Source of the DNA: a virus | IMG/VR virus record: IMGVR_UViG_3300028394_000078 | Coordinates: 1 to 64,000 of that record | Strand: one strand, 5' to 3' | DNA length: 64,000 bases | Shown: positions 2,623 to 16,591 of the stretch, one piece after another | Position numbering within the stretch: the stretch's first letter is position 1 | Layout of the letters: each line of letters begins with the position of its first letter | Translations under genes and position numbers: made by a program | Notes under the pieces: model-generated | What the model saw: the letters and a program-made list of their open reading frames with translations, nothing else | The model's database searches: none | What the model was told of the DNA's origin: nothing

Positions 2623-3453
2623 ATGGACCATTATACAACTTTAGGCGTAGATCGAAACGCAAGTCCGGAAGACATTAAACGGGCATATCGAAAACTAGCA
2701 GGACAGCATCATCCAGATAAAGGTGGTGATACTGCCAAATTTCAACAAATTGAAGAAGCATATCGAACATTGAGTGACGATGGAAAACGTCAACAATACG
2801 ATAATCCAGCACCCCAAGGATTTCATCAACAAGGCGGAATGCCTCCAGGATTTGAAGACATTTTTAGTCATATGTTTGGAGGAAACGGATCTCCATTTGA
2901 TCATATGTTTGGTGGCCGCAGGCCGCAACCTGTTAGAAATAGAACTTTAAACTTGCAAACACAGATATTGTTAGAAGAAGCATTTCATGGTAAAGAACTG
3001 TTAGCAACAATACAATTGCCATCAGGTAGAGAACAAATATTGCAGGTAAAAATTCCACCAGGTGTTAGTGACGGTACTACATTGAGACTGGCAGGCATGG
3101 GGGATGATAGCATTGGAAATATGCCAAGAGGTGATATACATTTGTCAGTACATGTATTACCACATAATATATATCAAAGGCAAGGCGACGATCTTGTTAG
3201 AAATTTACCTATTAATTGTTTAGATGCAATTGTAGGTAAAACTTTACAATTTGACACTATAGATAGCAAAACATTAGAAATTGAAATTGCGCCTGGTACA
3301 CAGCATGGTCAAACACTTGCTGTGCAAGGATACGGAATGCCTAATATGTCTAATTTCTATATGAGAGGACGATTGTTATTAAATATTAATATCACTGTAC
3401 CAACTAATTTAACAGATGAACAAAAAATACTTATTAATCAAATATTATGTTAA
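2623..3453 (+). CDS. dnaJ: DnaJ/CbpA-like co-chaperone
   Basis: A 276-residue J-domain protein. J domain residues 1-65 include the HPD tripeptide at 30-32 that triggers the DnaK ATPase. A Gly/Phe-rich linker follows (about 68-112), then two beta-rich substrate-binding domains. There is no CxxCxGxG zinc-finger block, so it is type II (CbpA/DnaJB-like) and shorter than bacterial DnaJ. No DnaK or GrpE is in the window, so it presumably recruits host DnaK. It overlaps the deformylase gene by seven bases and starts a def-clpA operon under a sigma70-like promoter. Confidence 0.9.
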
Positions 3454-7858: not shown

Positions 7859-8218
7859 ATGAAACTTACAGAATTTTTTAACAAACCTATGGAGATCAGC
7901 AAGCATGGTCAAAATACTGATGACGACAAACGTGCTGACGAACTATTTTGGTATATTATCGATCACGATAAATTACATAAAGACTACTTCCATCCTATTG
8001 CTAATAAAGTTAAAAAGTTAAAAGAATGCACACCCGAGCAAGTATTAGAAATATATATGCCAATGGTTATTAAAGGTTGTAAAGAATACCATCACGATAA
8101 CGAATTAAAAGGCAAGTTAGGCAAAGAATTTCCTCGAGAAATGAGAGATGACATGTGCCATAGACTACACGATCATTATCGTGAGGATATTAAAAAAGAC
8201 AAATACAAGTTAGGATAA
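7859..8218 (+). CDS. Hypothetical protein with capsid-targeting-like N-terminus
   Basis: A 119-residue, highly charged, His- and Lys-rich protein. Its start MKLTEFFNKPMEIS follows the same M-x-x-[NT]-E-[FL]-[FIL] pattern as five neighbouring genes, which resembles the T4 internal-protein tag MKTYQEFIAE. The body is mostly helical with regularly placed His residues (DHDKLHKDYFH, CHRLHDHY) that might bind metal. No family is recognised. It is the first gene of the putative internal-protein cassette and ends five bases before the next start. Confidence 0.55.
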   Translation: MKLTEFFNKPMEISKHGQNTDDDKRADELFWYIIDHDKLHKDYFHPIANKVKKLKECTPEQVLEIYMPMVIKGCKEYHHDNELKGKLGKEFPREMRDDMCHRLHDHYREDIKKDKYKLG

Positions 8219-8222
8219 TGCT

Positions 8223-11200
8223 GTGATATTAAATGAACTATTTAGAAATCCTAAATTAGCATTATCTGAGGGTGGTAATTTAGAATTACCTAATCCAGAC
8301 GATCCCACTACCCCCTATCAAGCAGACGAAATTGATCTTAAAGTTCATAACCGTACATTTATGGTAGGGCTATTGGATAAGTTATTACATGACGTAAATG
8401 CTGCTTTCTATGGTCAATACAAAAAACCGATATGGAATCCAGCGTTACTTCAATCAAAAGAGTTTTTAGGTGGAAGCAGTTTGCACTTTTTTAATACCGC
8501 AGGTATTAGTGATAAAGAATTTGCCAAACATAAACCCAAAGTAGGCGACATTGATACACAATGTAACAAAGAACTCGAACCAGAACTTAGAGAATTTTTA
8601 ACTTCTTATAATCACAAACCAATAGGCGATGCAACATTACTAGGATTTACTCAAGGCAATGAACAACTTAATGCATTGTTTCAATTTCAAGATCCTCCAA
8701 TTAAAATTCAAATAGATTTTGAACTTGGTCGTTATGCTCCGGAAACAGATACACCGGACGAATGGTATAGGTTCAGCCATAGTTCAGAATGGAATGATAT
8801 TCAGGCAGGTATTAAAGGTGTATTCCACAAATATATCTATAGAGCATTAACTGCTGCACATGGTAGTATTAAACATCAAGTTAATGTATTAAAAACAAAA
8901 ACTAATATTAAACCAAATGTTGATGATAACGATTTATCATTTGCAGTGGCCAGCGGACAAGGTGGTGGATTAAGTCAAAAGTACGAACCATACATACATA
9001 CCGATCCTACTACTGGTGAGAAAATGACTCACCAAGATAATGTTCCTTACAAAAGATTGATCCCAGCGCCTGAAAGAACTTATATACAGCAATTAGATAA
9101 ACAATTCTATTATTTCTTTGGTGCAAACCCAGAAGGCAATGATAAAGAATTGCAAAAGAGTTTCTTAGGCGCACTTGAATTAATTAACAAATATATACCT
9201 GATCAAGCAGCAAAAGAAAAAGTGTTCATGTCATTTTTAAACTTATGTTTTGAACCGGGCGCTCAAATGATTACCAAAGGTGATCCACAACGAGATCAAG
9301 AAATTAAATTTGCTGCAATAGATAACTTTATTAAAATTTGTAAATTAAATAATCTAAGAAAAACTGCTATAGATATGGGCAAGGCATATATTAAAGATTT
9401 TGAAGAAGTAGAAGCATTTAGAAAAGCCAATCCAGGTGAAAAGCAACCACGTGCTGCAATGAAAAAACAAGGTCTAAGAGAAGAGGCACAGGTCAAAGCA
9501 CAATTCCGTAAAGGTATGCCACACTTGCACGATCTTAAGCCTGCTGACTTGTTAGATTTATTAGACGAAATTCATGACGGAAACGGCAATTTTAAACTTG
9601 AAAACATCCCTTTAAACGTCAAAGTAGATGGATTCGGTGGTAGATTTGGTAAGAATTCCGAAGGTCGGCCTTTCATGGGCACCAGTAGAACAGAACCAAG
9701 ATACGAACCAGGCTTTGTAGCATATCATCAAAAGAAAGGCACTACTGATCCAGAAGTATTAGGTCGTGCAGAATTGTTTGATCAATTGTTTGAAGAGATG
9801 ATGAAGGCTGTTAAGTTAGTCGATAGCAAGTTAGGCCCTGGATTTTTAGTCAATAAACAAGTGACCTGTGAAGTATTGTATCTGCCATTTGCCACAGAAA
9901 CTCCAGAAGGCAAATTAAAGTTTGTGGGCATACACTACGACAAATTACCATCGGGTGTTAAACTTGCATTAGTACCATTCCGTATTACAGATGCTACCAC
10001 AGGTGATGATTTACCTAACTCAAATAAAATTGTACAAGAACTAACCAGTGTAGGACAATCCGGCAGTGTCATGTTCATTGACAACAGCCTAACACAAAAT
10101 GAAGCATTGGATGTTACAGCATTAGTTCCGCCTGTAGAGAATATCGACGAATTAAAAGCCATGTTGGCCAGCAACAAATTAGAAGCCAGACGACAAGTTA
10201 AGGCAGCATTAGAACCTGTGGCAGCAGCATTAGAAAAAGCAATCATTAACGATCCTAACATCATAGGCAAAGATTTGTTAGGACAAGACTATGAAGGTAT
10301 TGTTATCAATAGTCGCCTTGGTCCTATTAAAGTAACCAGTCAAGAACAACGTGATGTTATCACTGCCAAGAATGCTGCTAAAGTAAATGCAAGAACAGAG
10401 CGTCCAAGAGGCGAGGCTAAGACCGCAGTAGTTGCTATTGGAAGTTTTGTTGGACATATCGGTCATGAACAACTTTGGGATTATACCACTAAAAAAGCAG
10501 CAGCAGTAGGAGGTGATCCATATTTGTTTATTGGCAATGCACAGGGCAAAGATGATCCTATTCCACCGCCAGTCAAAGTACAGACCTGGCATAAACTATA
10601 TCCAGAATATGCTAAGAATATTAGCACCGTGACCCAAGATGGTGGATCACTATTACAAAAAATCAAACACGAGTTAATCAATCCACTTCCAGGTAAGCCT
10701 CCACGCTATGACAATGTTATTATTATGGTAGGCGAGGATCAAGCAGGTCTTACCATGCCACAGGCATTAATGAAGGCTGTTAATAAGTTTCCAGGATATG
10801 AACATGTTAAGGTTACATTAGAGCCAACACCACGTGGCACTGGTATGAGTTTTACTCGACTACGTAACATATTAAAAGATCCTAACGCTACTGAACAACA
10901 GCAATTAGCCGTGTGGAGTCAAGGATTTGATGTACAAAAATTAGGTGCTGACTGGATTAAACACCTAATGGACATAACAAGGAAAGGTATGGGAATACAA
11001 CAAGCACCGGCACCTGTGCCACAACCAGACCCTGCTCCTATAGCAGAACAAAGAGTATTAAATGCCCTAGTAGAAGGTACCAGCATTGACAGCACACTAC
11101 GAGCAATCATCAATGACATTGGCGAGCCTATTACCAGTGTTTATGACACGATGAAATTCCAGGCTAAGAAGTATATGGAGAATCACGGCGAACTAGGTCG

Positions 11201-12932
11201 TGGCTTTAGAATGGTAGCAGCAGGTGTTGGCGGCCGTTGGATACAAAATATGTACATAGGCAGACTACATAATGAACTTCACGACCTATGCAAATACAAC
11301 ACCCGTAGAACCGTGGAGTTACGTGACTTCTTACGTGGAGAAGAATCCAACGGTGAAATAGAAATGAAGAGATCATTTGGCAACCTTGCTAATAATCTAC
11401 CTCCTATATTGGCCAAGTTAGGCGAACAAATCAATGCTCCACAACTGACAAGAAATGCTCGTCGTTGGATGCAGAACAAAGCAGAATACGAAAGATACAT
11501 TATGGATCTTGAAGCAGAAGGCGATGATGAACTAGATGACGAACCAGTGATCAAGCCACCTAAGAGCAATGTAGTCGGACAACAGAATGCACAGGTTGAT
11601 CAGATTGTTAATGATATATTAAGTAAGATTCCCAAGCACATAGCCGGTGAGATACGTAATGCCATTGCTCGTTCTCCAAACAAATTATCAGCATTAAAAC
11701 AAGAGTTGAATAAGCATCATGTGACCATGTCAGAAGGTGCAACTGCTGATATGCGTTCATGGTTTGCAGGTCAAGAACGTAATTTACCATTTAGAAAAAA
11801 AACACCCGATATACGCAATTATGATTATCCAAAAGAAATTGATGATATTCTTAAAAAGATTAAAAACCGTGAAAGACTACAACCTCAAGAATTTGAGTAT
11901 CTAACAAAATGGAAGGCTCGCCAGGGCATGGATGAAGAGCAAGATGATGTAATGGGTAATATGGCTAAAGACCTAACTGGTCATGGTAGTCCTATTGCCA
12001 AGGCAGCAGCACAGAGAGATAAGAAGCGTGAGCAACAAAGTACTCAAAGTCATGGAAGAGCAGAAGGTCCTAAGTGGAATGTGGCTGAAGAAGAAATAAA
12101 AAATAATCATTGGTATGATGCCGGAGTGAAGGATGCTACTCGTGGTGCTAGACCTAATCCACGCACATATTTGCCAACACTTAAAGACAAGCAGGCTAAA
12201 CATCCAGAAGAAGTATATTTTTATATGCAAGGGTATAAAAGTGTCAAACAAGGTGTGGCGGAAGGCTCAGGCGAAGCAGAAGCATACAAGGCACATCTAA
12301 TAAAAACAATGCCACAAATGATGAACTTCCTAAGTAAGAAAGTTAAAGGGTGGACCCCTGGCAAAGAAGAAATGTTAGGTGCTATTGATACTGCCTATAT
12401 GGTTATGAAACACACCGGTGATGTTAAACAAGCAGGCAAGGCTATGATGGATGAGTTGAATACTCTACACAGAATGAGTCAAGGTCAGCAAGGTGTGGCG
12501 GAGGCTCGTATGAGTGCTGCTCAACGTTTATGGAATGCTGAACAGAAACAACGTGCTAAGAGCGACGCAAGTCTTGCTCGTACTCCAAGTAGTATTCCCA
12601 AACCAGAACCCAAGAAGGATGAGAAGATTGCTGAGAAGATGATGCCAGCAAGTAACTTTGCAGGTAGCAAAAAGAACAAACTTGGACCAGCAGGACAATG
12701 GAAGAACACTGGGCCAAAGAAAAACAAACCTGCACAGGCTGGTGACTTAGTTGGTGGTATGGAAGAAAGTTTGAAGGATACTAACCCTTGCTGGAAAGGC
12801 TATCACCCTGTAGGTACTAAGAAAAAAGCGGGCAAGACCGTTCCAAATTGTGTGCCAGTAAGTGAGAATGTTGAGAACATTATGGATGCTTTGATTAACA
12901 AGATTATTGTTAATGAAGCAACTAATAAATAA
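8223..12932 (+). CDS. Giant multidomain nucleotidyltransferase-like protein, putative internal virion protein
   Basis: 1569 residues from a GTG start; AGGA lies seven bases upstream, and the resulting MILNELF matches the tag of neighbouring genes. Region 1 (80-170) has GGSS 83-86, GDID 108-111 and QIDFE 163-167, the Pol-beta nucleotidyltransferase signature. Region 2 (about 430-710) has KVDG 467-470, CEVLYLPF from 549, EGIVI 691-695 and IKV 702-704, as in motifs I, III, IV and V of ATP-dependent ligases and cappers. Region 3 (735-885) has HIGH 745-748 and SFTRLR 876-881, as in cytidylyl/NMN adenylyltransferases. The last 250 residues are small basic modules separated by GVAE at 1344-1347 and 1424-1427, with a Cys-containing CWKGYHPVGTKKK block near the end. 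Substrates are unknown. Confidence 0.75.
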   Translation: MILNELFRNPKLALSEGGNLELPNPDDPTTPYQADEIDLKVHNRTFMVGLLDKLLHDVNAAFYGQYKKPIWNPALLQSKEFLGGSSLHFFNTAGISDKEFAKHKPKVGDIDTQCNKELEPELREFLTSYNHKPIGDATLLGFTQGNEQLNALFQFQDPPIKIQIDFELGRYAPETDTPDEWYRFSHSSEWNDIQAGIKGVFHKYIYRALTAAHGSIKHQVNVLKTKTNIKPNVDDNDLSFAVASGQGGGLSQKYEPYIHTDPTTGEKMTHQDNVPYKRLIPAPERTYIQQLDKQFYYFFGANPEGNDKELQKSFLGALELINKYIPDQAAKEKVFMSFLNLCFEPGAQMITKGDPQRDQEIKFAAIDNFIKICKLNNLRKTAIDMGKAYIKDFEEVEAFRKANPGEKQPRAAMKKQGLREEAQVKAQFRKGMPHLHDLKPADLLDLLDEIHDGNGNFKLENIPLNVKVDGFGGRFGKNSEGRPFMGTSRTEPRYEPGFVAYHQKKGTTDPEVLGRAELFDQLFEEMMKAVKLVDSKLGPGFLVNKQVTCEVLYLPFATETPEGKLKFVGIHYDKLPSGVKLALVPFRITDATTGDDLPNSNKIVQELTSVGQSGSVMFIDNSLTQNEALDVTALVPPVENIDELKAMLASNKLEARRQVKAALEPVAAALEKAIINDPNIIGKDLLGQDYEGIVINSRLGPIKVTSQEQRDVITAKNAAKVNARTERPRGEAKTAVVAIGSFVGHIGHEQLWDYTTKKAAAVGGDPYLFIGNAQGKDDPIPPPVKVQTWHKLYPEYAKNISTVTQDGGSLLQKIKHELINPLPGKPPRYDNVIIMVGEDQAGLTMPQALMKAVNKFPGYEHVKVTLEPTPRGTGMSFTRLRNILKDPNATEQQQLAVWSQGFDVQKLGADWIKHLMDITRKGMGIQQAPAPVPQPDPAPIAEQRVLNALVEGTSIDSTLRAIINDIGEPITSVYDTMKFQAKKYMENHGELGRGFRMVAAGVGGRWIQNMYIGRLHNELHDLCKYNTRRTVELRDFLRGEESNGEIEMKRSFGNLANNLPPILAKLGEQINAPQLTRNARRWMQNKAEYERYIMDLEAEGDDELDDEPVIKPPKSNVVGQQNAQVDQIVNDILSKIPKHIAGEIRNAIARSPNKLSALKQELNKHHVTMSEGATADMRSWFAGQERNLPFRKKTPDIRNYDYPKEIDDILKKIKNRERLQPQEFEYLTKWKARQGMDEEQDDVMGNMAKDLTGHGSPIAKAAAQRDKKREQQSTQSHGRAEGPKWNVAEEEIKNNHWYDAGVKDATRGARPNPRTYLPTLKDKQAKHPEEVYFYMQGYKSVKQGVAEGSGEAEAYKAHLIKTMPQMMNFLSKKVKGWTPGKEEMLGAIDTAYMVMKHTGDVKQAGKAMMDELNTLHRMSQGQQGVAEARMSAAQRLWNAEQKQRAKSDASLARTPSSIPKPEPKKDEKIAEKMMPASNFAGSKKNKLGPAGQWKNTGPKKNKPAQAGDLVGGMEESLKDTNPCWKGYHPVGTKKKAGKTVPNCVPVSENVENIMDALINKIIVNEATNK
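12252..12265 (+). repeat. GVAE-site DNA word, copy 1
   Basis: GGTGTGGCGGAAGG encodes GVAEG at residues 1344-1348 of the 1569-residue protein. The same word recurs at 13808 and 14414, and in a one-base-shorter form at 12492, always in frame at a module boundary. It may be a prohead-protease cut site (after Glu). Confidence 0.7.
12492..12504 (+). repeat. GVAE-site DNA word, copy 2
   Basis: GGTGTGGCGGAGG encodes GVAEA at residues 1424-1428 of the same protein, 240 bases after copy 1. The two copies bracket an 80-residue helical module. Confidence 0.7.
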
Positions 12933-12936
12933 CACT

Positions 12937-13317
12937 ATGAGAGCAAACGAATTTATCACTGAAAGAACAACAGGCAAGATGTCAAAGAGACAACAACAGC
13001 CGTCGCGAGGGTTACACACATTCAGCGATGCAGAACATGCCAATAGCGATTATACGTTCAATAGAGTAGGTCTTGCTGCCGCAATGTGTGATGGTAAAAA
13101 CAAACCCGATATGGATTATGTTAGTTGGATAGGTAAGAACAAATTAACTGCTCCTTATACTAAAATAGAAGCAGATATCCTTAAACAGGCTTATAAAATG
13201 GCAGGCGCAAATCATAAAGATATTAACAACGGTGACATGAATAGTAAAGAATTAGATAGTACTTACACAGTTAGCCCTGTGGCAAATTGGAAAGATAGAG
13301 AAAAAAATCATGACTAA
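12937..13317 (+). CDS. Hypothetical internal-protein candidate with MRANEFITE tag
   Basis: A protein of 126 residues from the ATG at 12937. An in-frame ATG at 12907 lies inside the preceding gene and would hide the tag. MRANEFITE closely parallels T4 IPI/IPIII MKTYQEFIAE, where the prohead protease cuts after the Glu; here the cut would leave RTTGKMSKRQQQ, a basic tail. The body (FSDAEHANSDYTFNRVG, DYVSWIGKNKLTAPYTKIE) is a compact helical domain of unknown family. There is no clear SD; AATAAATA lies just before the start. It overlaps the next gene by eight bases. Confidence 0.65.
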   Translation: MRANEFITERTTGKMSKRQQQPSRGLHTFSDAEHANSDYTFNRVGLAAAMCDGKNKPDMDYVSWIGKNKLTAPYTKIEADILKQAYKMAGANHKDINNGDMNSKELDSTYTVSPVANWKDREKNHD

Positions 13318-14614
13318 TGAATTTAAAAAAATAGATCAAGGTAACATAACTCGTTATGTATTAGAAAATGCCAGCGGTGGGGGGACTAGTTCAGGTAGTG
13401 TTGCCAGTGTTAGTATGCCCATGGGTGGTATGCAGCGTAGAAAAGGTGACAACTTGATTGCACAAGAAGGCGATAAGAAAAAAGTTCCAGCAAGTACTCC
13501 AAGAAACTTTGTTGCTAAGAATGCCAAGTCAAGCGGTGCTGGTGCTCACAAAGATAAGAAAAAAGAAGCCAAACAAGGTAATGTAAAACATAAAAAACCT
13601 TTTATGGAAAATAGAGATCATCCTGATCACGAAATACAAATGGCCAGTAGCGAACTAATGAGTATTGCTAAAAATGCTCAATCATTATTAGACATGGTAC
13701 AACGTTACAGCGAACAAGAAGGTCTTGATGCTTGGCAACAAAGTAAAATTACTAAAGCCGCAGACTACTTGAATAGTGTGCTACAAAGTATCAACGGTGA
13801 GCAACATGGTGTGGCGGAAGGTGATGCAGGACTTAGCAAAGATGCTGAAACTAATTTCCATGCAAAATTAGATCAACTTGTACATGCTACATTTGGTAAA
13901 AGAAAATCTGAGCAAGACACAGATGAGGACATGAGCCGTAGAGGTTTCCTCAAAGGTGCAGGAGCAATGGCCGCGGGAATATCAGCAGCAAGCGGTGCTC
14001 GTGCTGATAATCAAACTGATCCAAATAAATTAATTGCAATTGTTAATATCGATGGTGAATCTAAAGAGTTTAACTTAACCGGTAGATTCAAAGGCGATGT
14101 TAAATCTCAATTACATCAAGCAGAAGATTTTATAACTGAATTTTTAGAAAAACGAGATATTAACTTTTCTAACTTAGAACTACGCTATCAAGGTGCAGTT
14201 CTTAAAACACAAAATACTGGTTCTGTTAAAGAAGATGATTCTGCATTAAACGCATTTTTAAGTAAAGGTGGAAAGGTACAACAACTTCCATATAAAAAAC
14301 CTCGTAAAGCAGACAAAACCGATTATGGCAGCAAGCACATAGGCGGTGGTGGTGATAAAATGAAAGCTAGTAGAACAGGTACTGCTGCCAAAACCCAAGG
14401 TAGCAAAGTAGTAGGTGTGGCGGAAGGCTCGGAAGATAAGATCAAGCAACTAAAGAACGAAAGTGTAGATCCATACTTTGAATCACTACAAACTATGGTT
14501 GAAAGACAATTGGAACCTACTATGGATTTAGACACTTGGGTTGATAATTTCCAAAATGCTGATCCACAAAAGTATCACCAATTTAAAAATAAGACCCCAG
14601 AAAAAAAAAAGTAA
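13310..14614 (+). CDS. Modular basic protein with GVAE sites and embedded Tat-like signal
   Basis: A 434-residue modular protein. Residues 1-25 resemble a processed tag (MTNEFKKIDQ then YVLENASGGG). Residues 25-100 are Gly/Ser/Lys-rich, and 105-165 form a helical module (HEIQMASSELM, QSKITKAADYLN). GVAEG follows at 167-171, a 200-residue segment comes next, GVAEG recurs at 369-373, and a helical C-terminal module ends in Lys. The middle segment contains SRRGFLK at 209-215, a hydrophobic stretch and ARA at 230-232, a full twin-arginine signal pattern, followed by a beta-rich domain (about 235-300). Similar modules occur in other large phages as I recall. No enzymatic motif is seen. Confidence 0.7.
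   Translation: MTNEFKKIDQGNITRYVLENASGGGTSSGSVASVSMPMGGMQRRKGDNLIAQEGDKKKVPASTPRNFVAKNAKSSGAGAHKDKKKEAKQGNVKHKKPFMENRDHPDHEIQMASSELMSIAKNAQSLLDMVQRYSEQEGLDAWQQSKITKAADYLNSVLQSINGEQHGVAEGDAGLSKDAETNFHAKLDQLVHATFGKRKSEQDTDEDMSRRGFLKGAGAMAAGISAASGARADNQTDPNKLIAIVNIDGESKEFNLTGRFKGDVKSQLHQAEDFITEFLEKRDINFSNLELRYQGAVLKTQNTGSVKEDDSALNAFLSKGGKVQQLPYKKPRKADKTDYGSKHIGGGGDKMKASRTGTAAKTQGSKVVGVAEGSEDKIKQLKNESVDPYFESLQTMVERQLEPTMDLDTWVDNFQNADPQKYHQFKNKTPEKKK
13808..13821 (+). repeat. GVAE-site DNA word, copy 3
   Basis: GGTGTGGCGGAAGG encodes GVAEG at residues 167-171 of the 434-residue protein. It is identical to copy 1 in a different gene. Confidence 0.7.
14414..14427 (+). repeat. GVAE-site DNA word, copy 4
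   Basis: GGTGTGGCGGAAGG encodes GVAEG at residues 369-373 of the 434-residue protein. The identity with copy 1 continues through GGCTC. Confidence 0.7.
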
Positions 14615-14663
14615 TGGCCACAGCGGCCTTGTATAAAGCCCGTCAGCCAAAGGTGAAAAAACA

Positions 14664-14954
14664 ATGAGAGCAAACGAATTTATAATCGAATCTGCTGCTT
14701 GGCATCGTAAGGCCGGCAAAAGCAAGTCTGGCGGACTAAATGCCAAAGGTGTTGCTAGTTATCGTAGAGAGCATCCTGGTAGCAAACTGCAAACAGCGGT
14801 TACCACTAAACCCAGCAAATTAAAAGCCGGTAGTAAGGCTGCTAAACGCCGTAAATCATTCTGTGCTCGTATGAGCGGTGTTGATGGTCCTATGAAAAAG
14901 CCCAATGGCAAACCCACACGTAAGGCATTGGCTCTACGCAAATGGAATTGCTAA
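14664..14954 (+). CDS. DUF6321-like basic protein with MRANEFIIE tag
   Basis: A 96-residue, very basic protein. The first nine residues MRANEFIIE are nearly identical to the tag of the gene at 12937. The remainder (WHRKAGKSKSGGLNAKG, YRREHPGSKL, KRRKSFCARMSGV, TRKALALRKWNC) fits the DUF6321 family of small phage proteins as I remember it; two Cys and many Arg/Lys suggest nucleic-acid binding. If cut after Glu9 it would be a DNA-packaged basic peptide. The start is preceded by AAAGGTG. It ends directly against the next ATG. Confidence 0.75.
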   Translation: MRANEFIIESAAWHRKAGKSKSGGLNAKGVASYRREHPGSKLQTAVTTKPSKLKAGSKAAKRRKSFCARMSGVDGPMKKPNGKPTRKALALRKWNC

Positions 14955-16049
14955 ATGCGTATTAACGAATTACTTGAGGCGCTTGCAAGTGATGACGATC
15001 TAAAAGCACGATACGGTGATTTTGATCCCGAAGATAAACCTATGCTTCCAACCACACATGTTGGTGGTGCTCCTGCTCCTACGCTATGGACAGCATATGA
15101 TGTAATTCGAAATATACTAGGAAGAGATCAAGTAACGGACGACGATGAAGAATTAGGACCAGGAATGTATTATGTTTATCAAAGCGGTGGGCCTCCTATG
15201 TTTAGAGATACAGGTGACGGTGTAGGAAGTATCAATGTACCAAACTTAGAAAGTACTGCTGCCAGAGATGTAGCACAGGCTGCACACGAAGCATATCATG
15301 CGTATGTTCATAGTAAGAGTCAAGGTGGTGTTGTTTATGCCAACGAAAAAATTATAAACAATCTAGCAGAAAAATGGCTACGAAAACATTTATCCGGGCC
15401 TGCATTGCATGTTGGATTGGAACAGATTGTGGGCAGTAGAATAAGCTACGGTCCAAATCATATTCCCACGCAAACAGAAAACTTTACCAACTACCAGGGA
15501 GTTAGACCACCTAAGAATGTTCCTGGTACGAATCTATTTCCTGGACAAGACATAGTGGGGCAAAGGGTTTATCATTGTACCAATAGGCTAGAAGCAATTA
15601 AGAAAAGTGGAGGACTAAAACCTCGGCGTGACGCCACAGGCGAACGGGAATATGGTCGGTTGAGCACAGATGAACATCCATTTATTCCTGTGATAGGCAT
15701 TTGGTTTAGTGTGGGCAAACCAGACTGGCCCGGTAAACATTGTGTGAGTTTTGTTATAGAACCCACAGATCAAGTGTATGTGGCCTATGCTAACACCAAA
15801 GGCTTGAAACCGAATGTTGTATTAAATCCAATAGCATTAGACAGGCTTACTGTGGAAGGTCAGCAGGATGTAGCAGAGAATTTTGCCGATGGTCGTAATC
15901 CCCAAGACAAGGGTGATGCCAAACGACACGGTGTAAATACCAAAGCAAGTGTAAGTAGTTTACGTAAGACTGCCAAGCAAGGCGGCCGCAAAGGTCAACT
16001 TGCACATTGGCTAGCCAATATGAAAGTTGGAAGGGCTAAAAAGAAATAA
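14955..16049 (+). CDS. HExxH protein with possible ADP-ribosyltransferase-like domain and basic tail
   Basis: 364 residues. MRINELLE resembles the cassette tag. HEAYH at 111-115 in a helix is a zinc-metallopeptidase-type HExxH motif. The later segment VYHCTN (205-210), GGLKPR (219-224) and GIWFS (248-252) has the H-x-T, turn and beta order seen in ADP-ribosyltransferase-like folds; this is weak. The tail after DVAEN (305-309), NPQDKGDAKRHG to KVGRAKKK, is a basic module found in several phage proteins as I recall, probably binding DNA. T4 Alt is a precedent for an injected ADP-ribosyltransferase. Overlaps the SOD gene by one base. Confidence 0.6.
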   Translation: MRINELLEALASDDDLKARYGDFDPEDKPMLPTTHVGGAPAPTLWTAYDVIRNILGRDQVTDDDEELGPGMYYVYQSGGPPMFRDTGDGVGSINVPNLESTAARDVAQAAHEAYHAYVHSKSQGGVVYANEKIINNLAEKWLRKHLSGPALHVGLEQIVGSRISYGPNHIPTQTENFTNYQGVRPPKNVPGTNLFPGQDIVGQRVYHCTNRLEAIKKSGGLKPRRDATGEREYGRLSTDEHPFIPVIGIWFSVGKPDWPGKHCVSFVIEPTDQVYVAYANTKGLKPNVVLNPIALDRLTVEGQQDVAENFADGRNPQDKGDAKRHGVNTKASVSSLRKTAKQGGRKGQLAHWLANMKVGRAKKK

Positions 16050-16591
16050 TGTATAATTTTATAAAATATGTAGTAGAGGGCAAAGAAATTAAACACCTTG
16101 AGCAGGTGAAGTTATCCTATGCTCGCGATGCACTAGAACCTGTGAAAAGCGAAGATACAATGGATTATCATTATGGCAAGTTATATAGAACTTATGTCAA
16201 TCGCTTTAATGCCGGTGAAGGTGATCCAAACTTCAACGAAGCAGGTGCGTTCTTACATAGTATGTATTTTCCACAACTACAAGTCCCAGATGAAAACAAT
16301 ACCCCAATAGGTGCATCTAAAGAGTTTATCAATAAACATTTTAAATCATTTGATAATTTTAAAGAAGAATTTACCAAAGTTGCTATGGGCATACAAGGCA
16401 GTGGGTGGGTCTATCTTGCTCGAAACGGTGAGATCAAAACCATTGTCAATCACCAAATTAAGAATGATATCATACTACTAATAGATTGGTGGGAACACTC
16501 TTGGGCTCTTGATTACCAAGCAGACAAAAAGGGTTATTTAACTAACACATGGAAAATTATCAATTGGAACATTATAGACGCTCGTTTATAA
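16049..16591 (+). CDS. sod: Fe/Mn superoxide dismutase with N-terminal extension
   Basis: A 180-residue Fe/Mn SOD that dismutates superoxide to oxygen and peroxide. The four metal ligands are all present: H41 (MDYHYGK), H70 (FLHSMYF), D146 and H150 (DWWEHSW). GSGWVYL (117-123) and INW (171-173) are further family marks. The usual His-His after YGK is Leu-Tyr, so a conserved second-sphere His is lost. About 14 residues precede the normal SOD start, and MYNFIKYVVEGKE looks like a targeting tag with a possible cut after Glu10. Last gene of the cassette, sharing one base with the preceding stop. Fe versus Mn preference cannot be told. Confidence 0.9.
   Translation: MYNFIKYVVEGKEIKHLEQVKLSYARDALEPVKSEDTMDYHYGKLYRTYVNRFNAGEGDPNFNEAGAFLHSMYFPQLQVPDENNTPIGASKEFINKHFKSFDNFKEEFTKVAMGIQGSGWVYLARNGEIKTIVNHQIKNDIILLIDWWEHSWALDYQADKKGYLTNTWKIINWNIIDARL

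Follow-up and report, generated by a model that had tools for sequence, protein, structure and literature searches.

What might a phage gain from a single protein that carries three different nucleotidyltransferase-like regions? The question is raised by a locus in a T4 relative from lake water. We analysed a window of 64,000 nucleotides that lies in a 65.5-kb virus record (IMG/VR IMGVR_UViG_3300028394_000078). In this window, one frame stays open from 8223 to 12932 (+), with a GTG start and no internal stop, and codes for 1569 residues, as a first-pass annotation made from the sequence alone had it. The motifs listed in that annotation are all present and in the order given. GGSS (residues 83-86), GDID (108-111) and QIDFE (163-167) belong to a Pol-beta-type domain (PB), KVDG (467-470), EGIVI (691-695) and IKV (702-704) to a ligase-type covalent nucleotidyltransferase domain (LIG), and HIGH (745-748) and SFTRLR (876-881) to a HIGH-type adenylyl/cytidylyltransferase domain (HIGH). 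From the N- to the C-terminus, the three domains occupy approximately residues 17-400, 425-718 and 732-928.

Searches of the window protein against Pfam, NCBIfam and PDB sequences returned nothing useful. Fused PB-LIG-HIGH proteins are common in viral contigs, and we aligned the window protein with 51 distinct fused relatives at under about 90% identity. The catalytic residues of all three domains are invariant in these 52 rows, bar conservative S/T swaps in the second motif of HIGH, and the motifs are therefore beyond chance. Alignments of the window protein and its relatives were used as AlphaFold (AF2) input for two models, one of PB (residues 14-425) and one of LIG-HIGH (residues 421-935). 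Judging from these models, the three domains are nucleotidyltransferase folds; the Foldseek and VIA searches did not return other folds for two or more of the modelled regions. Invariant residues and predicted folds together thus support the proposed trio.

PB (residues 17-400; 8271..9422, +) has the features of the Pol-beta superfamily, namely GS at 84-85, D109/D111 and D165, and matches PHROG 19290 (3e-23). G84, S85, G108, D109, I110, D111, Q163, D165 and E167 are invariant among the 52 rows, and the GS motif, DxD and third Asp are also kept in Xanthomonas phage X1, Stenotrophomonas phage Moby, Campylobacter phage CP220 and Vibrio phage Va1. No Pfam match to RlaP-like or other named nucleotidyltransferase (NTase) families was found for the window protein at E<=1, nor in X1, CP220, Va1 and Moby at the limits used. 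The model (pLDDT 93.2, pTM 0.89) aligned in VIA with Pol mu (Z 8.1, rmsd 3.8 over 172 residues) and Pol lambda (Z 7.8), and in Foldseek with Pol beta (prob 0.99, E 3e-3). These scores are middling (Z about 8), and the RNA-tailing enzyme TUT7 and cGAS (Z 7.7) follow closely, within 1 Z of Pol mu. The predicted fold is nearest to those of Pol mu, lambda and beta, and template-directed DNA synthesis is only putative. The tie with cGAS would fit a maker of signalling nucleotides of the cGAS/OAS type, or a toxin-type NTase. However, the cGAS alignment covers ~123 residues versus ~172 for Pol mu and lambda, which reach beyond the palm, and family X polymerases typically have a GDID motif. We thus hold a signalling or toxin role of PB to be highly improbable.

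LIG (residues 425-718; 9495..10376, +) displays motif I (K467xDG), R474, E550, motif IV (E691G) and motif V (K703). K467, D469, G470, R474, E550, E691, G692 and K703 are invariant in the alignment, as is V694 of motif IV, and the key residues are also kept in the separate genes of X1 and Moby. The LIG-HIGH model has a pLDDT of 85.5 and a pTM of 0.56, meaning that both domains are well modelled while their arrangement relative to one another is uncertain. Its VIA matches were taken up by HIGH, so that the fold of LIG rests on Foldseek, which retrieved an archaeal RNA ligase (5d1o_A, prob 1.00, E 2e-4), followed by tRNA ligases and DNA ligases including DNA ligase 1. Motif V has a single lysine (KVTS rather than KxK), the second Lys being absent, and LIG is not evidently followed by an OB domain on its C-terminal side. 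For these reasons, its sealing activity is putative.

HIGH (residues 732-928; 10416..11006, +) contains H745-x-G-H748, GxD (837-839) and SxTxxR (876-881). G740, S741, H745, G747, H748, D778, P779, G837 and R881 are invariant, and positions 876 and 878 are Ser or Thr in nearly all of the 52 rows. Profile searches of the PDB yielded only weak RibF matches, for this domain. In VIA, the model matched a PPAT (6b7d, Z 12.9, rmsd 2.8 A over 143 residues) and an NMNAT (1m8j, Z 12.4), a tie that does not separate the two activities. Homologues of HIGH encoded by genes of their own in X1, Moby and cyanophage S-H9-1 score above the curated cut-off of Pfam CTP_transf_like. At the curated cut-offs for NMN adenylyltransferases, the window protein gave no match and the X1 homologue scored below them, although the latter has its best scores with these models and with an NMNAT whose structure is known. 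These observations bear on the main rival of the end-repair reading proposed below, in which injected HIGH would be an NMN adenylyltransferase restoring NAD+ that a host defence has depleted, and LIG and PB would take part in the same nucleotide network. NadV, NadM and NadR have been described as NAD+ salvage enzymes of phages (PMC9503650), and the fold of HIGH suits such a role as well as it suits a PPAT. Nevertheless, scores remain under the equivalog cut-offs, the tied Z values do not single out NMNAT, and the constant LIG partner and PB are left unexplained. We consider NAD+ restoration rather unlikely.

The genetic organization of the relatives informs on whether the domains work as one. 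In X1 and Moby, the parts are consecutive separate genes in the order PB-X-LIG-HIGH. Some contigs of the fused group, L158 and L188 among them, have PB without LIG or HIGH within the available stretch, and the genomes of CP220 and Va1 encode PB, whereas LIG and HIGH were not found in them. Since PB can occur without the other two, the three domains need not act together. A scan of cellular genomes for LIG homologues identified a single Anaerolineae MAG contig (L321), with a PB-X-LIG arrangement, and no other relative. There, two different genes encode PB (MLISFGEFLNE|GGN) and LIG (MGFEKYLQE|A), and both products start with a leader.

The X protein is encoded between PB and LIG, or before the DUF6267 gene discussed below (L136 8948-9952, L223 4007-4951, L320 5001-5900 and the L321 ORF at 1876), and has relatives in 69 phage records. 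By eye, a D...PIS.K-type stretch makes it look like a PD-(D/E)XK nuclease. It has no Pfam match, and its profile detected no copy in the contig of the window or in seven large fused relatives.

In cyanophages, pelagiphage HTVC008M, Methylophilales phage Melnitz and Vibrio phage EniLVp02, a DUF6267 protein with a KWDG motif is encoded beside or near a HIGH gene. The KxDG and HIGH pair is widespread in cyanophages, near replication genes; in S-H9-1, the genes lie near those for a helicase, a recombinase and a primase, and in EniLVp02 the X-DUF6267-HIGH genes are located between those for a gp41-type helicase and a primase. The EniLVp02 HIGH protein (L320 6988-7875) harbours a UvsW.1 domain (Pfam) and, after it, a SATRMR-containing HIGH-type domain recognized by eye, and the 'DNA helicase' annotation of its gene is probably wrong. 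We observed that DUF6267 (PF19782) proteins combine KWDG with C-terminal EG[YF]VA or EGFVI and KLV motifs (L222 5727-6959, L221 5320-6576, L319 5974-7206, L320 5897-6979). Based on these motifs, DUF6267 is probably an unrecognised ligase-type nucleotidyltransferase. Its motifs and gene order suggest a distant counterpart of LIG, a relation that sequence profiles do not prove. The 52 fused members have no match to PF19782. HMM searches in both directions and hhalign aligned motif I only, with scores that are not significant, although the gene order X-DUF6267-HIGH agrees with a homology of LIG and DUF6267, which we regard as putative.

We then considered how the chain might reach its site of action. 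In T4, the prohead protease gp21 cleaves behind L/I-X-E, and the N-terminal propeptides that it takes off serve as capsid-targeting sequences (PMC9026906). The window protein begins with a leader reminiscent of such sequences, MILNELFRNPKLALSE (residues 1-16; 8223..8270, +), which ends in a predicted site, L-S-E|GGN. In the 52-protein comparison, all members have a short leader, typically M-L-L-R-E-L-F..., and [LIV]xE|GGN is letter-perfect in 51 of them, the exception (L091) reading EGSN. The N-terminal site hxE[AGSD], here [LIV]xE[AGSD], is thus found in 52/52 proteins versus 4.4 expected from shuffles. In X1, Moby and Va1, where PB is a gene by itself, this gene begins at MGGN, so the predicted cut coincides with its start; the PB gene of CP220 reads MKLSELMFILE|GGN. 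A second predicted site, L418-R-E420|E (9474..9485, +), lies in the PB-LIG linker, where [LIV]xE is present in 52/52 rows (23.8 expected) and [LIV]xE[AGSD] in 46/52 (7.4 expected from shuffles). The LIG-HIGH linker has [LIV]xE in none of the 52. After HIGH, two more [LIV]xE sites are predicted, I-A-E942 and L-V-E951|G (11040..11078, +), and the region contains [LIV]xE in 43 of 50 relatives versus 25.5 expected. A control region inside HIGH (830-870) also gives many [LIV]xE[AGSD] matches, which correspond to GED, a motif conserved within the core of the fold. Thus, the [LIV]xE motif alone does not prove cutting.

A protease of the gp21 family (Peptidase_S77) is encoded in 12 of the 15 records that we examined, among them five large contigs from fused relatives; no match was detected in the window record, which is a fragment, or in the large relatives G003 and G007. 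A cytidylyltransferase was identified by mass spectrometry in virions of cyanophage S-CREM2, with three peptides (PMC10665884, Table 3); the authors warn of possible co-purification or contamination, and we treat this protein as a putative homologue of HIGH. Based on the conserved leader, the L/I-x-E-type sites and the presence of the gp21-family protease in relatives, we find it likely that the chain is packaged and processed. It is probably a head-packaged polyprotein that is cut into PB and LIG-HIGH and injected.

An ordinary cytoplasmic enzyme, with [LIV]xE sites as incidental features of linker composition, would account for the leaderless versions of X1, Moby, Va1 and S-H9-1, which presumably act in the cell, and Glu-rich linkers are common. 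However, incidental composition is hard to reconcile with the site counts at the N-terminus and in the PB-LIG linker, their absence between LIG and HIGH, a predicted cut exactly at the start of stand-alone genes, and the like leaders of several neighbouring genes. We judge a purely cytoplasmic enzyme quite unlikely. The leader, the conserved gp21-type sites, the protease of the relatives and the published virion detection all favour the first-pass suggestion of action after injection, which for the phage of the window is inferred. The same annotation had envisaged one combined job for the protein, possibly in NAD repair, RNA repair or nucleotide signalling. A single trifunctional protein is probably not to be taken literally. 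With a conserved protease site between them, PB also occurring alone and the parts existing as separate genes, PB and LIG-HIGH look rather like a co-delivered set.

The genes around the locus have similar N-termini. The preceding small gene (7859..8218, +) starts with MKLTEFF, and in L047 and L050 a sequence like its C-terminal end runs straight into the PB protein. Most of the following genes (12937..16591, +) have leader-like N-termini (MRANEFITE, MRANEFIIE, MRINELLEA, MYNFIKYVVEG). One of them (16049-16591, +) codes for an Fe/Mn superoxide dismutase starting with MYNFIKYVVE|GKE (Pfam Sod_Fe_C, 83 bits, cut-off 20.9), which is possibly head-packaged. The corresponding cassette of the relative L188 (ORF at 3379) includes a protein that is Dps/ferritin-like by eye. 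Together, the two proteins hint at a packaged oxidative-stress defence.

The C-terminal part of the window protein (residues 952-1569; 11076..12929, +) is variable. It includes a region found as a domain in some relatives (~950-1165), GVAE sites at 1344 and 1424 and a CW...NCVP tag (1523-1545). It is not conserved among fused relatives, and pieces of it recur in other proteins. Short, mostly basic modules (ENFADG..., FAGS..KLG, RMSAAxKL, CWxGY..GTKxKxGKxVxNC) recur across proteins and linkers (window 11076-16049; L106, L105, L090, L023 and other loci), often near [LIV]xE or GVAE sites, and we read them as shuffled cleavable beads. HExxH and YHCT/YHAT stretches, reminiscent of ADP-ribosyltransferase-like effectors, were seen by eye in the window ORF at 14955-16049 (+), which has no Pfam match, and in the C-terminal regions of L083 and L086.

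The resemblance of the variable C-terminal parts to effector tails is one argument for host takeover, in which PB and/or LIG would put NMPs on host proteins or RNA, much as injected Alt does with ADP-ribose. T4 Alt is a precedent (PMC9026906), and Pol-beta NTases are listed among the protein-modifying domains of injected 'polyvalent proteins' (PMC5512222). Nevertheless, the folds nearest to PB are polymerases and RNA-tailing enzymes, and the cyanophage KxDG and HIGH pair lies near replication genes. Host takeover is therefore very unlikely in our estimation.

We give close to an even chance to the reading that the protein is the precursor of a head-packaged, injected enzyme set of a T4-like phage with a role in nucleic-acid end repair. 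As we envisage it, the leader would carry the chain into the prohead core, like the capsid-targeting sequences of T4 internal proteins, and a gp21-type protease would cut after [LIV]xE at E16, about E420 and about E942/E951, releasing a PB enzyme that starts with GGN, an enzyme made up of LIG and HIGH, and fragments of the C-terminal part. These two steps are strongly indicated. The released enzymes would then enter the cell with the DNA. A weaker final step is that, immediately after entering, they might heal nucleic-acid ends and seal them: PB could add or fill nucleotides at a 3' end, LIG could activate the ends, with AMP on K467, and join them, and HIGH could supply or transfer an adenylyl or NMP group, perhaps making NAD+ from NMN.

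End repair itself is suggested by the nearness of the PB fold to Pol mu, lambda and beta and of the LIG fold to RNA and DNA ligases, and by known cases of repair in which a Pol-beta enzyme is paired with a ligase. The combination of a family X polymerase and a ligase serves in DNA repair. Phages have also been reported to pair the Pol-beta NTase RlaP with RNA ligases (PMC7824862). We put forward this function tentatively, at somewhat less than even chance. DNA is slightly favoured over RNA as the substrate because of the neighbouring helicase, primase and recombinase genes and the UvsW.1 domain on the EniLVp02 HIGH protein. The fullest version, that T4-like phages inject a complete end-healing and sealing system matured by the prohead protease, with a Pol-beta filler, a ligase and an adenylyl supplier repairing breaks of the incoming DNA or attacked tRNA before phage gene expression, is more doubtful. 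If our explanation is right, the phage head would carry a repair or nucleotide-transfer system usable within moments of entry, and a polyprotein would be matured by the same protease as the capsid. The predicted cut sites make the polyprotein directly testable by mass spectrometry.

In the open-licence papers that we searched, we found no description of the PB-LIG-HIGH trio, in line with the novelty first claimed for it, nor of the likely nature of DUF6267 or of such an enzyme polyprotein cut by a prohead protease. That phages inject head proteins, and polyvalent proteins, is known as a general idea. Like the T4 internal head proteins and Alt, the window protein has a short N-terminal leader, a predicted L/I-x-E cut, a gp21-type protease (here in relatives) and a cluster of genes with like leaders; it differs in its cargo, a chain that unites three nucleotidyltransferases and has a predicted cut site within it, and its packaging is predicted. 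Polyvalent proteins are likewise large phage proteins of several domains, believed to be injected, and some have a Pol-beta NTase, but no such trio was found in the portion of the work consulted (PMC5512222), and the domains of the window protein are apparently separated by the prohead protease. The RlaP-RNA ligase pairs similarly place a Pol-beta NTase beside a ligase, whereas PB and LIG have no RlaP or RNA_ligase Pfam match, and the HIGH partner and the packaging are additional here. Phage NadM and NadR share the HIGH fold and motifs; in contrast, HIGH of the window and of X1 falls below the family cut-offs, and no Nudix or kinase partner was seen. Family X DNA polymerases acting with ATP ligases, such as PolX and the ligase of ASFV, resemble our proteins in the palm and further fold region and in the ligase partner, but LIG is without an evident OB domain. 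Lastly, the cyanophage 'cytidyltransferase' (phrog_3041/395/455) and DUF6267 differ in that DUF6267 has no sequence-level match to LIG and that no PB was seen in cyanophages, yet they share a HIGH homologue adjoining a KxDG protein in many cyanophage records, together with the cytidylyltransferase of S-CREM2 virions. The fused chain may thus offer a common reading for widespread unexplained parts, namely this virion 'cytidyltransferase', the DUF6267 protein encoded next to it and the Pol-beta-like protein that stands alone in Campylobacter and Vibrio phages.
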